Below are positions 334 to 4,370 of a stretch of 10,013 bases of DNA, piece after piece. The position numbers were made by a program, and so were the translations under genes. Below the pieces are notes generated by a model that saw only the letters and a program-made list of their open reading frames with translations, did not search any database and had not been told where the DNA came from. Source of the DNA: Chitinophagaceae bacterium (GTDB lineage: Bacteria > Bacteroidota > Bacteroidia > Chitinophagales > Chitinophagaceae); the NCBI GenBank assembly GCA_009996555.1, contig JAACZX010000051.1:1-10013 (forward strand), written 5' to 3'. Within the stretch, counting starts at the first letter, position 1, and each line of letters opens with the position of its first letter.

Positions 334-3300
334 ATGGAATATAAGTTCAGAGATATTGAGAAGAAATGGCAACAGCAATGGATCAATACAAATGCCTACA
401 AGGTTTCGAACGTAAGTGACAAACCGAAATTTTATGTGTTGGATATGTTTCCGTATCCAAGTGGTGCTGGCTTGCATGTAGGGCATCCGCTGGGTTATAT
501 TGCCAGCGATATTTACAGCCGCTTTAAACGACTGAAAGGGTTTAATGTATTACACCCCATGGGTTATGATGCATTTGGTTTACCCGCCGAACAATATGCC
601 ATTGAACATGGTGTACACCCGGCCGTTAGTACCGATCAGAACATTAATAATTTCCGCCGCCAGTTAGATAATATTGGTTTCTGTTACGATTGGGATCGAG
701 AAGTACGTACTTGTGATCCCGGTTATTACAAATGGACGCAGTGGATCTTTTTACAACTCTTCAATAGTTTTTACAACCGCAAAACAAACAAGGCTGAAAA
801 AATTGATGTGTTGATCGCATCGTTTGAAGCAGAGGGTAACGCAACCCACCCAATCCCTAATTCCCAATTCCCAATTACTGCTTTCACTGCAACTGAATGG
901 AAAGCCTTCGACGAAAAAACGCAACAAGATATTCTCATGCAATATCGCCTTGCCTATTGCGGTTATGGCGAAGTAAACTGGTGTGAAGCATTAGGAACTG
1001 TGCTGGCGAATGATGAAGTAGTGAATGGTGTGAGTGAACGTGGTGGGCATCCGGTGGTGAAAAAGAAATTACGTCAATGGTATTTGCGCATTACAGAATA
1101 TGCCGATCGTTTACTCGAAGGTTTGGAGCGTATTGAATTCAGCGAAAGCATGAAAGAAATGCAGACCAACTGGATTGGGAAGAGTAGTGGGGCGGAGATC
1201 ACATTTGAAATCAAGCGGCCCCCTCTAACCCCCCCGGAGGGGGGGGACTGGCAAGCTGCAGAACAAAATCGGGACAATCCAACCGAAGAAGAAAATAGAT
1301 TGTGGCAACGGTTACGTGCCAATCAAACGGGGCATCATATTCGTCGTCAGCATATCATTGATCAATATATTGTTGATTTTATTTCGATTGATAAAAAAGT
1401 TACGATAGAGGTTGATGGAGGATATCATAATGATGCTGAACAAAAGCAATACGATGAAGTACGCACCGCTTTCCTGAAAGAACTTGGTTATGAAGAATTA
1501 CGTTTCACAAATGAGGAAGTAAGAAATAATATTGATGCAGTTGTTGAAGCAATAACTCAAAAGCTCAATAGTAAACCTTCAGTTGGGCAAGTCTCACCTT
1601 CCGGGGAAGATTTAGAGGGGGCTACTTTGACTGTTTATACCACAAGACCCGATACCATCTTCGGTGTAGACTTTATGGTGATTGCTCCTGAATTGGATTT
1701 AGTTGATCAGATAAAATCGGCAGAACAAACAACTGCAGTGGATGAATACATTGCGTACGTAAAAAGCCGCAGTGAGCGTGAACGACAAGCGGAGAAAAAG
1801 ATCAGTGGTGTGTTTACCGGTGCGTATGCCGTAAATCCGTTTGATGGAAGAGAAATTCCTATCTGGATTTCTGAATATGTATTGGCAGGTTATGGTACCG
1901 GTGCAATTATGGCGGTGCCTTGTGGCGATGACCGTGATTTCAAATTTGCACAGCATTTCAATATTCCTATCACCAACATTATTGGTAAACATTTCAACGG
2001 CGAAGAAGCCAATGCAACAAAAGATGCAGTGTTGGAGAACAGCGGTTTCTTAAACGGAACGCCGATGCGTGAAGCTGCCGAAATAGTAATTAATAAACTG
2101 GAAGAGTTAGGCATCGGTACACGCAAAGTAAATTTCAGAATGCGTGATGCAGCGTTCAGCCGTCAGCGTTATTGGGGTGAACCATTTCCGATCCAATGGA
2201 AGGGTGGTACTGCTTATCCATTAAGTGAAACTGAATTGCCATTGCTGTTACCGGAAGTTGATAGTTATAGTCCCGGCCCTGAAGGTGAAGGTCCGTTAGC
2301 AAATATTCCGGAGTGGGTAGCAAAAGAACTGGAGACGAACACCATGCCCGGCTATGCAGGCAGCAGCTGGTATTTCTTACGCTACATGGATCCCAAAAAT
2401 GAACATGCATTCTGCGACCGTACAGTAAGTGATTACTGGAACCAGGTTGATTTATACATTGGTGGTACAGAACATGCAGTTGGTCATTTGTTGTACAGCC
2501 GTATGTGGACAAAGACTTTGTACGATCTCGGGCATATTGGCCATGACGAACCGTTTAAAAAGTTGGTGAACCAAGGGATGATACAGGGGGCATCACGTTT
2601 TGTATATCGTATCAACGGAACCAACACATTTGTATCAAAGGATTTGTTGAAGAGCGAAGAAGAATACGAAGGAAAGAAATTAGATAAGTTACATGTTGAT
2701 GTGAATTTTGTTGATGGCTATGAATTGGATGTAGAAGCATTTAAGAAATGGCGCAACAATGAACATGCAAATGCCGAGTTCATTTTAGAAAATGATAAGT
2801 ACATATGCGGCTCTGAAGTAGAGAAAATGAGTAAGAGCAAGTTCAATACCGTTAACCCCGATGATCTCGTTAACAAATACGGTGCAGATACATTCCGTAT
2901 GTATGAAATGTTCCTCGGTCCGGTGGAGATCAGCAAACCTTGGGACACGAAGGGTATTGAAGGTGTGCATCGCTTCCTCAAAAAACTCTGGCGTTTGTTT
3001 TATGATGAGGTGAAAGGTCAGGTTTGGAATAATGATAAGGCAACGGATGCCGAATTGAAAGTGTTGCACAAAACCATTAAGAAAATTGAAGATGATACCG
3101 AGCGTTTCAGTTTCAACACCGGCGTAAGTACATTCATGATCGCCGTAAACGAACTAAGCGATCTAAAATGCCACAAGAAAGAAATACTGGAACCATTATT
3201 AGTATTACTGGCGCCCTATGCTCCGCACATTGCTGAAGAGTTGTACAGACGCTTGCAAGTCTCCCCTTCCGGGGGAGATTTAGAGGGGGCTTTTTCTATC

Positions 3301-3534
3301 CTCGATGCAAACTTCCCCAAATTTGAAGCGAAGTATGTAACCGAGTCAACCAAAGATTACCCGGTTGCCATTAATGGTAAAACAAGAACCGAGCTTACAC
3401 TCGATTTGAGTATAACCCAACAGGAAGTGGAGGCAATTGTATTGGCAAACGAAACTGTACAAAAATGGCTCGAAGGCAAACAGCCGAAGAAGATCATTTA
3501 TGTAAAGAATAAAATGATCAACGTAGTGATATAG
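334..3534 (+). CDS. leuS: Leucyl-tRNA synthetase with DUF559 nuclease-like insertion in the editing domain
   Basis: This class Ia synthetase charges tRNA-Leu with leucine in the cytoplasm and removes mischarged amino acids through its CP1 editing domain. The ATP-binding HIGH motif is HVGH (residues 48-51) and the second signature is KMSKS (831-835). The editing-site segment TLTVYTTRPDT (431-441) and the later GTGAIMAVP block (521-529) are present, as is the tRNA-binding C-terminal tail ending near IIYVKNKMINVVI. The start at 334 is secure: an in-frame TAA lies at 319-321 and the N-terminus matches the family. No clear Shine-Dalgarno is present. At 1066 residues the protein is roughly 130 longer than I expect for Bacteroidota LeuRS. 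The surplus is a nuclease-like insertion at about residues 295-430. Two smaller repeat-derived segments lie at about 171-182 and 976-986. The frame is open throughout and the synthetase motifs are intact, so the gene is probably functional. It is followed after 6 bp by a REP hairpin. Confidence 0.96.
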   Translation: MEYKFRDIEKKWQQQWINTNAYKVSNVSDKPKFYVLDMFPYPSGAGLHVGHPLGYIASDIYSRFKRLKGFNVLHPMGYDAFGLPAEQYAIEHGVHPAVSTDQNINNFRRQLDNIGFCYDWDREVRTCDPGYYKWTQWIFLQLFNSFYNRKTNKAEKIDVLIASFEAEGNATHPIPNSQFPITAFTATEWKAFDEKTQQDILMQYRLAYCGYGEVNWCEALGTVLANDEVVNGVSERGGHPVVKKKLRQWYLRITEYADRLLEGLERIEFSESMKEMQTNWIGKSSGAEITFEIKRPPLTPPEGGDWQAAEQNRDNPTEEENRLWQRLRANQTGHHIRRQHIIDQYIVDFISIDKKVTIEVDGGYHNDAEQKQYDEVRTAFLKELGYEELRFTNEEVRNNIDAVVEAITQKLNSKPSVGQVSPSGEDLEGATLTVYTTRPDTIFGVDFMVIAPELDLVDQIKSAEQTTAVDEYIAYVKSRSERERQAEKKISGVFTGAYAVNPFDGREIPIWISEYVLAGYGTGAIMAVPCGDDRDFKFAQHFNIPITNIIGKHFNGEEANATKDAVLENSGFLNGTPMREAAEIVINKLEELGIGTRKVNFRMRDAAFSRQRYWGEPFPIQWKGGTAYPLSETELPLLLPEVDSYSPGPEGEGPLANIPEWVAKELETNTMPGYAGSSWYFLRYMDPKNEHAFCDRTVSDYWNQVDLYIGGTEHAVGHLLYSRMWTKTLYDLGHIGHDEPFKKLVNQGMIQGASRFVYRINGTNTFVSKDLLKSEEEYEGKKLDKLHVDVNFVDGYELDVEAFKKWRNNEHANAEFILENDKYICGSEVEKMSKSKFNTVNPDDLVNKYGADTFRMYEMFLGPVEISKPWDTKGIEGVHRFLKKLWRLFYDEVKGQVWNNDKATDAELKVLHKTIKKIEDDTERFSFNTGVSTFMIAVNELSDLKCHKKEILEPLLVLLAPYAPHIAEELYRRLQVSPSGGDLEGAFSILDANFPKFEAKYVTESTKDYPVAINGKTRTELTLDLSITQQEVEAIVLANETVQKWLEGKQPKKIIYVKNKMINVVI
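844..879 (+). repeat. Heptanucleotide tandem repeat translated within leuS
   Basis: About four heptads (AATCCCT, AATTCCC, AATTCCC, AATTACT; 852-879) lie in frame in leuS and are translated as THPIPNSQFPIT (residues 171-182). Three heptads equal seven codons, so expansion or loss in steps of three units would keep the frame. The segment sits in a loop between FEAEGNA and FTATEWK, which I recall as variable in Bacteroidota LeuRS. The same type of 7-bp tandem appears at the end of the protease gene at 8095-8122 with a different unit. Confidence 0.7.
1217..1255 (-). repeat. SPSG-type repeat, copy 1 (left end of the DUF559 unit)
   Basis: Read on the minus strand this copy runs CTTGCCAGT, a C8 tract, TCC, a G7 tract, then TTAGAGGGGGCC. 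It matches copies 2 and 3 in order and spacing but is inverted relative to them. The C and G arms form a hairpin. In the leuS frame it is translated as PPLTPPEGGDW (residues 296-306). The long homopolymer arms (C7 at 1229-1235, G8 at 1239-1246) are unusual inside an essential reading frame. Confidence 0.85.
1218..1622 (+). mobile_element. Inverted-repeat-bounded unit encoding an in-frame DUF559 endonuclease domain
   Basis: The unit starts with GCCCCCTCTAA (1218-1228) and ends with its exact reverse complement TTAGAGGGGGC (1612-1622). It is 405 bp long, exactly 135 codons, and open in the leuS frame. Residues about 316-410 match the DUF559 pattern (Vsr-like, PD-(D/E)XK superfamily): NPTEEENRLWQRLR, then IRRQHIIDQYIVDF with D348, then IEVDGGYH with E359 and D361, then YDEVRTAFLKELGYEELRF. 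These acidic residues are the likely metal-binding catalytic set and all are present. The stretch has no methionine codon, so a free nuclease could arise only from a rare start or by processing. It interrupts CP1 directly before the TTRPDT editing strand (EITFEIK / TLTVYTTRPDT). I see no flanking target duplication. Treating it as mobile is inference from the inverted repeats, the alien domain and the extra repeat copy elsewhere in the gene. Confidence 0.8.
1585..1623 (+). repeat. SPSG-type repeat, copy 2 (right end of the DUF559 unit)
   Basis: The sequence GCAAGTCTCACCTTCCGG, then GGAAGATTTAGAGGGGGC, aligns closely with copy 3 and with the reverse complement of copy 1. It is translated as GQVSPSGEDLEGA in the leuS frame. 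With copy 1 it forms the inverted pair that frames the nuclease domain, the TTAGAGGGGGC end facing outward. Its hairpin arms are more diverged than in copy 3. Confidence 0.87.
3254..3292 (+). repeat. SPSG-type repeat, copy 3 (solo, in the leuS C-terminal region)
   Basis: The sequence GCAAGTCTCCCCTTCCGG, then GGGAGATTTAGAGGGGGC, differs from copy 2 at only a few positions and lies in the same orientation. It contains a hairpin with arms TCTCCCC and GGGGAGA around a five-base loop. It is read in the leuS frame as QVSPSGGDLEGA (residues 975-986), between the conserved APYAPHIAEELYRRL and SILDANFP segments, in place of a short loop. No nuclease domain accompanies it. Confidence 0.87.
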
Positions 3535-3540
3535 TTGCTG

Positions 3541-3577
3541 CGGTGGGTCACCCGCTTGTATTTGGGGTGGCCCACCG
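3541..3577 (-). repeat. REP-like hairpin A (inverted relative to B and C)
   Basis: CGGTGGGTCACCC (3541-3553) pairs with GGGTGGCCCACCG (3565-3577) with a single non-Watson-Crick position, around an 11-nt loop. On the minus strand it reads CGGTGGGCCACCC, loop ending in GC, GGGTGACCCACCG. This places the C-A mismatch where hairpins B and C have theirs. It starts 6 bp after the leuS stop codon and could also protect the 3' end of that mRNA. Confidence 0.85.
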
Positions 3578-3590
3578 GCTTTTCAACCGC

Positions 3591-3627
3591 CGGTGAGCCA
3601 CCCTTGAAGAAGGCGGGTGACTCACCG
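3591..3627 (+). repeat. REP-like hairpin B
   Basis: CGGTGAGCCACCC (3591-3603) pairs with GGGTGACTCACCG (3615-3627), leaving one C-A mismatch (3598/3620) around the 11-nt loop TTGAAGAAGGC. It is separated from hairpin A by 13 bp and inverted to it, forming a BIME-like pair. The 3' arm is identical to that of hairpin C. Confidence 0.87.
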
Positions 3628-3689: not shown

Positions 3690-4370
3690 ATGCCTATACC
3701 TGACGAATACAAAGCACCGTTTGCCTGCAATCAATATTATCATTTTCTTTTCCGTAGCATAGATGGCATTCCGTTATTCAAATCAAATAAGGAAAGATTC
3801 TTCTTCCTTGAGAAGTGGAAACGGTTTACAACAACATTGCTTAATACATGGGCATATTGCCTGATCGATAATCATGTTCATATCATCGGGAAAATGAAAG
3901 CCGAACAGGAGATAGAGCATAATCTTTTTTTCCTGCCAGTTGAGTTAAGAACAAGTGCTATCAGGAACTTTTTAAATGAAAAATCATTGCAGGCATTTGA
4001 ATCAGTTGTTGAACGGCAGATCAACAGTTTTATGGTTTCGTATAGTAATACTTATAATAACGTTATTGAAAGAAAAGGAGGCGTATTTCAGCAACCATTT
4101 CGAAGAAGTATCATTGCAGATGAATCGCACTTGCAGCAGGCGATTGTTTATGTACATGCCAACGCACAAAAGCATGGTTTAGTGAACGATTTTAAACGAC
4201 ACAACCATAATTCTTATCATACAATACTTGACGGCAACGAAACTTTTATAAGTACAAAAGCTGTAATTGAGTTTTTTGGAGGAATTGATAAGTTTATCAG
4301 CATTCATAAAGAGCAGGTAGCTTATTTTTACAGCAGACAATGGCCAAATTCAAAATTGGAAATTGAATAG
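3690..4370 (+). CDS. REP-associated tyrosine transposase (RAYT, Y1/HUH, IS200-like)
   Basis: This is a single-strand DNA nuclease-transposase of the TnpA-REP family, expected to bind and cleave REP hairpins. The metal-binding HUH motif is NHVHII (H62 and H64 of 226 residues). Aligned by eye with the E. coli RAYT around its catalytic tyrosine segment (DYIYINPVKHG), Y154 in VYVHANAQKHGLV is the likely nucleophile. The family's usual N-P pair is N-A here (158-159). The GVFQQPFRRS block (131-140) and HNSYHTIL (173-180) are also typical. The length and both motifs suggest an intact gene. The start at 3690 precedes conserved sequence by a short leader; no Shine-Dalgarno helps to decide it. REP-like hairpins on both sides support the call. 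RAYTs are usually single-copy domesticated genes, so this is probably a resident element rather than an active insertion sequence. Confidence 0.9.
   Translation: MPIPDEYKAPFACNQYYHFLFRSIDGIPLFKSNKERFFFLEKWKRFTTTLLNTWAYCLIDNHVHIIGKMKAEQEIEHNLFFLPVELRTSAIRNFLNEKSLQAFESVVERQINSFMVSYSNTYNNVIERKGGVFQQPFRRSIIADESHLQQAIVYVHANAQKHGLVNDFKRHNHNSYHTILDGNETFISTKAVIEFFGGIDKFISIHKEQVAYFYSRQWPNSKLEIE

Follow-up and report, generated by a model that had tools for sequence, protein, structure and literature searches.

REP-bounded Vsr-fold nuclease cassettes in frame in core genes of Bacteroidota: candidate homing elements without splicing

The DNA analyzed here, referred to below as the window, is a 10,013-nucleotide stretch of a Chitinophagaceae genome (GenBank assembly GCA_009996555.1, contig JAACZX010000051.1). 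Its leuS gene (334–3534, + strand) encodes a leucine-tRNA ligase (LeuRS) of 1066 amino acids including inserts, recognized by TIGR00396 with 911 bits against a cut-off of 548, and within that open reading frame (ORF) lies a cassette of 135 codons (1218–1622, + strand) composed of a palindrome, a DUF559 nuclease domain and the same palindrome inverted. The cassette is likely to belong to a family of mobile elements that extends across the phylum and whose members are not spliced, persist in the manner of inteins, spread by means of their own nuclease and are protected by residence in essential genes. Support for this comes from the many unrelated genes in which such units lie in frame, from sites that are filled in some genomes and empty or palindrome-only in others, from lineage swaps in sister species, from end sequences that weakly track the nuclease lineage and from conservation of the nuclease.

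The leuS cassette and its empty sites in congeners

The cassette spans 405 bp, which is divisible by three, and the LeuRS ORF stays open across both junctions. The left end (1218–1250, + strand) resembles a repetitive extragenic palindrome (REP) and joins an outer motif, GCCCCCTCTAA, to a C7/G7 hairpin (CCCCCCC with a GGA loop). The right end (1589–1622, + strand; AAGTCTCACCTTCCGGGGAAGATTTAGAGGGGGC) is also REP-like, with an imperfect hairpin in the window copy that fell below hairpin scoring. The outer motifs are exact inverted copies (GCCCCCTCTAA at 1218–1228 and TTAGAGGGGGC at 1612–1622), and the repeat extends to 16 nt at 88% identity. Between the ends, the DUF559 domain (PF04480; 1252–1566, + strand) was detected with a profile E value of 2.7e-30, and the match to residues 307–411 of LeuRS gave E=1.5e-29 and 102.5 bits against a curated cut-off of 20.6. 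The putative catalytic residues D348, E359 and D361 are all in place, together with H365, within the codon stretch 1375–1428 (+ strand). The unit lies directly upstream of VYTTRPDT. A sequence-only reading of the window had described a 405-bp in-frame unit with exact inverted ends and open junctions, carrying D348, E359 and D361 of a DUF559 domain directly ahead of the TTRPDT strand and lacking intein motifs, and each of these features was present where it had been claimed.

No intein Hint-type family was found by Pfam in the whole LeuRS protein at E≤0.001. The cassette ends read KRPPLTPP and EDLEGAT, and comparison with intein features, including the splice-junction residue rule for inteins, did not place the cassette among them. 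Pfam also recognized no added DNA-binding domain in LeuRS. The distance from NWIGKS.GA to TTRPDT is 148 aa in the window LeuRS and 166–167 aa in close LeuRS relatives, a difference of 18–19 aa that falls just N-terminal of the nuclease core. A structure model of the whole LeuRS was dropped for insert placement (mean predicted local distance difference test score, 66.7).

Exact inverted repeats of 11 bp at 250–600 bp spacing are expected about once per window by chance (1 seen in 10 kb versus 1.19 expected from codon-block shuffles), and the repeat was therefore discarded as proof by itself. A chance origin is removed because of recurrence: TTAGAGGGGGC occurs 13 times in the window genome, compared with 2 occurrences of a reversed-pattern control, and hairpins lie beside in-gene DUF559 copies at a frequency far above background.

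Four DUF559 copies are present in the window genome, three of them in frame within core genes: LeuRS, MetRS (directly upstream of GKVLYVWFDAPIGY) and chorismate synthase (AroC; ahead of an EIGGE stretch in a gene truncated by the contig end). All three sites are empty in both same-genus genomes examined, G160 and G083. The flanks of the LeuRS site are 91–97% identical in protein sequence between the window and these congeners, and the empty site in close relatives for which the sequence-only reading had proposed a search does exist; similarity to it ends at approximately 1215–1218 and 1622–1626. The empty LeuRS and MetRS sites read 'EIDFAIKGHEQQLRVYTTRPDT' and 'KVPLKDAEGKVLY', respectively, in G160, with close variants in G083, and the empty AroC site reads 'KKLMPGITIHAEV' in G083, with a close variant in G160. 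At each site, a few loop residues are replaced by the insert. A further, palindrome-only insert of the same REP type lies in frame in the C-terminal part of leuS (3257–3290, + strand); this insert and the short palindrome insert of MetRS are likewise absent from G160 and G083. DUF559 itself is still present in G083, as one copy fused ahead of ArgB (named by eye) and one 204-aa frame. A LeuRS labelled Lacibacter carries an insert 79% identical to that of the window.

Host genes, nuclease and palindromic ends across the phylum

DUF559 was present in 95 of 195 Chitinophagaceae genomes, the window genome included. The family contains at least 150 DUF559 places. Among the 150 listed, 72 (counted by hand) belong to open frames that reach 350 aa or more and one further copy to a 282-aa CinA fragment, giving 73 in host frames. 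We inspected the 72 long-frame copies and the CinA fragment, together with 21 short-frame copies out of the 77 that remained (13 hand-picked, 8 supplied as loci); with duplicate loci L013, L014 and L026 removed, the set comprised 94 copies, of which 64 are internal to a host gene, 9 are N-terminal fusions and 21 are free. BLAST against Pfam-annotated proteins labelled hosts as LeuRS, MetRS, AroC, CinA, adenine deaminase and six MetH, whereas IcmF, ArgB, IspG, HsdR, Lhr, M23, HisA, ThrB, RecG, IspF, two further MetH and similar hosts were named by eye from their sequences.

In the wider phylum, 222 of 395 Bacteroidota genomes contained DUF559, and 15 of 29 newly typed loci were in long frames (7 of these LeuRS or MetH by BLAST). 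Named genomes were scanned with a profile of 12 in-gene domains, which biases the scan to in-gene copies. Among the best 80 of 570 confirmed stretches, 65 were in host frames and 15 were short. BLAST labelled 38 of these hosts (LeuRS 20, IleRS 11, MetH 2, and one each of Lhr, Acs, ArgB, AroC and IcmF), and the 27 named by eye included 14 RecG and 8 N-terminal fusions. All 19 isolate-titled records among the best 80 (titles without MAG, mag or uncultured) have the cassette inside RecG (for example, Tenacibaculum gallaicum DSM 18841 and Maribacter luteus), IleRS (Marinilabilia salmonicolor and Salegentibacter holothuriorum), LeuRS (Agriterribacter humi and Pedobacter sp. Leaf194) or Lhr. The window genome, a draft that is 92.9% complete, has a single full-length LeuRS match and no second LeuRS at E≤1e-15; at the same threshold the filled LeuRS is the sole LeuRS in 6 of 6 genomes, namely the window's own and five isolates, with completeness known for the window's only. 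The suggestion of an in-frame mobile element in tolerant loops of essential genes is thus supported by empty sites and by recurrence in core genes.

The putative catalytic residues are kept in 63–64 of the 64 in-gene copies, which answers the earlier question of selection on these residues with near invariance, and the ratio of nonsynonymous to synonymous substitution (8 of 15 pairs estimable) indicates purifying selection on the nuclease codons. The fold model is of Vsr type, with the acidic residues and histidine of the EDxHD class, and among solved structures, Vsr and the homing endonuclease I-Bth0305I (PDB: 3r3p) are two of the nearest in fold.

Pyrimidine/purine hairpins accompany the internal copies on the left in 51 of 64, on the right in 50 and on both sides in 40, compared with 26 of 1151 control windows (2.3%); for the window's own LeuRS copy, the left hairpin alone was scored. 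The two ends of an internal copy match each other as inverted sequences better (mean score, 33.8) than they match the ends of other elements (20.1). This own-end match exceeded the cross mean in 56 of 63 internal copies, one copy at a contig end being excluded, and exceeded all 40 cross pairs in 18; the arrangement resembles that of a REPIN in having two REPs in opposite orientation. Own ends also matched in the free copies (32.9 versus 18.3; 16 of 21 higher than the cross mean) and the N-terminal copies (32.0 versus 19.1; 8 of 9). Across 1440 pairs of inserts in different genes, drawn from 62 of the 64 inserts, similarity of the nuclease correlates with that of the left end (r=0.11; 14 of 1000 permutations as high) and the right end (r=0.16; 0 of 1000), which is weak though beyond permutation. 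In one LeuRS cassette, L038, the nuclease groups among those of AroC cassettes and the ends are AroC-like as well.

A second hairpin type, CCCCTCC(N2–5)GGAGGGG, is found at 10 sites in the window genome (each counted on both strands) versus 0 for the control, and two of the ten flank the genome's one DUF559 copy outside core genes. The expectation that DUF559 frames elsewhere would have palindromic ends held for MetRS, AroC and many core genes, but TTAGAGGGGGC is one of several end types and was rejected as too narrow a signature for the class. Further palindrome-only in-frame inserts occur in MetH and NuoB of the window genome (gene names by eye). Neither of two outcomes named beforehand as fatal, a lack of empty sites and a lack of repeat ends at other DUF559 genes, occurred.

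Several copies have unusual arrangements. Two DUF559 cassettes of different lineages occupy two sites within one LeuRS in L023 and L058, and in the LeuRS insert of L057, where the site 1 markers are 236 aa apart, repeated palindromes surround DUF559, a layout suggestive of elements that entered next to or within each other. In other genera, the loop that holds the cassette in the LeuRS CP1 domain carries other low-complexity or repeated peptides (L114, L128, L129 and L133; IQNSKFKIQNSKFKI, PQLAAQSSQL, RSQEPGI and IYNSQF), which suggests that it is a general insertion-tolerant spot. N-terminal fusions to biosynthetic enzymes (L059, L063, L067, L074, L084, L082, L090 and L080; by eye five ArgB, ThrB, HisA and an NTP transferase) cluster with mostly free copies and are without pyrimidine hairpins; the ArgB set forms one clade (support, 100/94). 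Free-standing DUF559 genes L095, L096, L102 and L046 lie within multi-palindrome arrays and are a possible source population. No phage vehicle was found at the sensitivity of the search of viral contigs (44 loci, best 47% identity), and no plasmid vehicle at that of the plasmid search (39 matching records, all below 60%). PADLOC gave weak partial matches only (DpdF, 4e-6; mREase_II, 4e-4).

Alleles, inheritance and rival explanations

Filled and empty alleles occur at the same site in related genomes for LeuRS, MetRS, AroC and RecG. In one genus, 147 of 150 genomes match a filled RecG query; nine contain the insert by match pattern (two at contig ends), and most of the other matches break near query position 414–424. 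Of 30 RecG loci inspected, with states here and at LeuRS counted by length, 20 are empty ('KLWTKSEIPPHVLVM'), 9 are filled ('KLWGKASPSPSKGGE...GEVGGATPPHVLVM') and 1 is palindrome-only ('KLWAKASPSPSNDGASVPPHVLVM'); the left end GCCTCCCCTAGCCCCTCCAA is common to the palindrome-only and filled alleles. The net length of the insert is 432, 435 or 438 nt. The filled query is 85–90% identical in DNA to empty and palindrome-only alleles and 80–83% identical to the filled allele L287, and filled alleles fall at seven places on the RecG tree, the deepest branches of which are weakly supported. A second LeuRS site also shows three states (35 empty, 4 short and 7 DUF559 among loci; 30, 9 and 10, respectively, among listed proteins). 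At the first LeuRS site, 31 loci are empty, 33 contain DUF559 and 1 is short, with no palindrome in the short form.

Sister species in two genera carry different cassettes at the same LeuRS site. In one pair the host parts are 89% and 86% identical and the inserts 43% (the IcmF insert of this pair is better conserved, at 73% identity with host parts of 84% and 84%); in the other, the host parts are 94% and 86% identical and the inserts 49%. On a tree of the 94 domains, which has few alignment columns and a bootstrap that had not settled, 25 changes of host label are needed, compared with a minimum possible of 17 and a shuffled mean of 59.5. One clade (98/93) combines inserts from CinA (3 of 4), MetRS (3 of 3) and adenine deaminase (2 of 2), and one half of the tree (96/96) holds 16 of 21 free copies and all 9 N-terminal fusions. 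LeuRS labels change eight times, two of which are forced by well-supported branches.

Several results weigh against mobility as the whole account. The closest empty/filled pair is approximately 87% identical in DNA, so that no insertion is seen at nucleotide precision, and no target-site duplication was seen at RecG in a pair of that identity. Insert and host identities correlate in five protein sets (r=0.42–0.74; the Acs set wrongly contained one LeuRS row, P0059) and in RecG (0.75), where only 5 of 45 filled pairs have a higher identity in the insert than in the host; much of the inheritance of the cassette is therefore vertical. Conflicts between insert and host trees exceed the host-half control modestly and unevenly, with none for the LeuRS insert against the right half, and one ancestral LeuRS insertion with later losses is a less likely but still tenable reading of the tree. 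Few free copies have both hairpins (left 7, right 15 and both 6 of 21), the N-terminal fusions have none (0 of 9), and the correlation between nuclease and ends is weak. By the phylogenetic standard of a homing element, then, the swaps in two genera are clear, yet tree conflicts are modest and identities correlated.

Some candidate cases of movement were set aside, along with the tree-conflict test, which was not decisive. For P0089 and P0083 (inserts 100%, hosts 83% identical), a windowed alignment showed the host difference to be mainly in one variable region, and the pair was rejected as a case of horizontal transfer. MetH of G040 and G130 is mostly 91–99% identical over approximately 6.5 kb around the insert and mostly 70–80% just beyond, but this is not proof of a homing tract because the recombination mosaic is off-centre from the insert. 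The G040 match to the free G130 copy L101 stops before the gene and leaves no clean empty site, and the flanks of CinA in G040 (filled) and G130 (no DUF559 there) are 74–77% identical in DNA, too distant for borders to be placed.

In the model that we propose, a cassette consists of a REP-like palindrome, a stop-less reading frame for a Vsr-fold (DUF559) nuclease and an inverted copy of that palindrome, and it occupies, in frame, a loop of a gene that is conserved and often essential. With no splicing, host and nuclease would be made as one polypeptide and stay fused, with the palindromes translated as short Pro/Gly/Glu-rich linkers. The nuclease may cut or nick cassette-free alleles, or the palindromes, and repair would then copy the cassette in; the cassette's own nuclease thus probably helps it to spread. 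Residence in an essential gene may protect the cassette because only precise in-frame deletion would be tolerated. A fuller version of this proposal, on which our judgment is evenly balanced, treats the cassettes as a class of homing elements that is phylum-wide and does without splicing. Vsr-fold nucleases flanked by REPs would enter loops in essential genes, such as those for aminoacyl-tRNA synthetases, RecG, chorismate synthase and MetH, and persist there as permanently translated domains, so following the strategy of inteins with no splicing step. The palindromes would serve as recombination ends, hairpin targets and protein linkers, and palindrome-only alleles would be landing sites or footprints.

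It is less probable, though a serious alternative, that a REP-associated tyrosine transposase (RAYT), or else hairpin slippage, moves the palindromes and that these are REP/REPIN elements of the ordinary kind, with DUF559 a passenger between two REPs that has a separate role of its own. A passenger would not need a nuclease kept intact over deep divergence, as the catalytic residues are here, and the end type tracks the nuclease lineage across genes, albeit weakly. On the other hand, a RAYT-like gene (3690–4370) begins 155 bp after leuS (NF047646, E=2.4e-11, 43.7 bits, under the curated cut-off of 80), palindrome-only in-frame inserts without DUF559 exist, and REPs in frame are already known (PMC3733652). 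Domestication of an old insertion in a few genes, kept for a benefit to the cell in repair, defence or regulation and made patchy by loss, seems unlikely; it would account for the correlated insert and host identities, the purifying selection and the recurrence of the same sites across genera, but it fits poorly with unrelated host genes, multiple sites within single genes, sister species whose cassettes at one site differ in lineage, a clade common to different host genes and three separate genes empty in both congeners.

We regard removal of the insert after transcription or translation, by intein-like splicing or by ribosome bypassing aided by the inverted ends, as very improbable. The inverted ends could pair in mRNA, and hairpins on both sides are frequent (40 of 64), but the inserts are open, in frame and a multiple of three, as the three RecG lengths illustrate, which RNA-level removal or bypass would not need; selection acts on the nuclease codons at the protein level, and LeuRS has no Hint family. 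Removal at the RNA level was accordingly judged unlikely. An assembly or binning artefact is scarcely credible: the draft assembly of the window genome has 801 contigs, but the arrangement recurs in nineteen isolate-titled genomes, which excludes, for the class as a whole, the sequencing artefact feared earlier, and the filled LeuRS is the only one found in the six genomes searched.

Relation to known elements

In-frame palindromes without a nuclease are already known. Rickettsia palindromic elements (RPEs) are approximately 150 bp, contain a short conserved peptide and are in frame and translated in unrelated protein genes (PMC10969869). The cassette resembles them as a translated in-frame palindrome in unrelated protein genes, but it is not a short element free of a nuclease gene: it encodes a complete, conserved nuclease between inverted ends of REP type, and that description of RPEs mentions no nuclease. 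Intragenic REPs and REP dimers, proposed to be mobile, occur in frame within various genes, tRNA synthetase and repair genes among them, and encode 20–30 aa, or up to 82 aa in clusters, of repeat; GTAG/CGTC-tagged families have been described (Di Nocera 2013, PMC3733652); the cassette shares the in-frame palindromes and differs by the complete DUF559 domain between them. Of the marks of classical miniature inverted-repeat transposable elements and insertion sequences, inverted ends are present, and no target-site duplication is visible at RecG in a pair only approximately 87% identical in DNA. The primary RPE papers are reportedly those of Ogata in 2000 and 2002.

In inteins, too, a nuclease is encoded in frame within genes that are conserved and essential, with empty and filled alleles; the cassette differs in having no splicing domain, and the insert appears to stay in the protein. 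Homing endonucleases with a Vsr-type fold are known, among them I-Bth0305I, an EDxHD enzyme of a mobile intron with extended DNA-binding regions and a target of nearly 60 bp (PMC3943268), whereas the cassette has neither intron nor intein. Proteins of the Vsr and DUF559 kind, Caulobacter VsrA among them, are separate repair-type proteins and not in-frame inserts of core enzymes. One DUF559 protein of Caulobacter is known to act in vivo (PMC12907096). In fungal rps3, a LAGLIDADG homing endonuclease is fused in frame to a core gene within a mitochondrial intron (PMC10448965), but these fusions involve another nuclease class and are not internal palindrome-ended units in many bacterial genes. No report of the nuclease-carrying in-frame palindromic form was found in a literature search that lay outside most subscription journals and bioRxiv, and the DUF559 literature, judged by titles and abstract openings, contained nothing on in-frame inserts.

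If the proposal is correct, essential proteins can harbour a mobile element that carries a nuclease but has no splicing apparatus, and the tolerance of the folded host protein takes the place of splicing as the condition of survival. A vague annotation, DUF559 within a tRNA ligase, becomes a class open to testing, for which culturable Bacteroidota supply alleles of all three states (empty, palindrome-only and filled), and REP palindromes, the spread of which is poorly understood, are linked with a Vsr-type nuclease. The insertion sites form a large natural catalogue of positions in core enzymes that apparently accept a folded domain of 110–150 residues, which could be of use in protein engineering, and annotators are warned not to call such genes fused or broken.

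Two minor features of the window lie outside the cassette. Palindromic-looking DNA at approximately 3541–3620 adjoins the RAYT-like gene, and within LeuRS a NPIPNSQFPIT-type stretch (850–890), encoded by AATTCCC-rich DNA, is common to the window and G160 and differs in G083.
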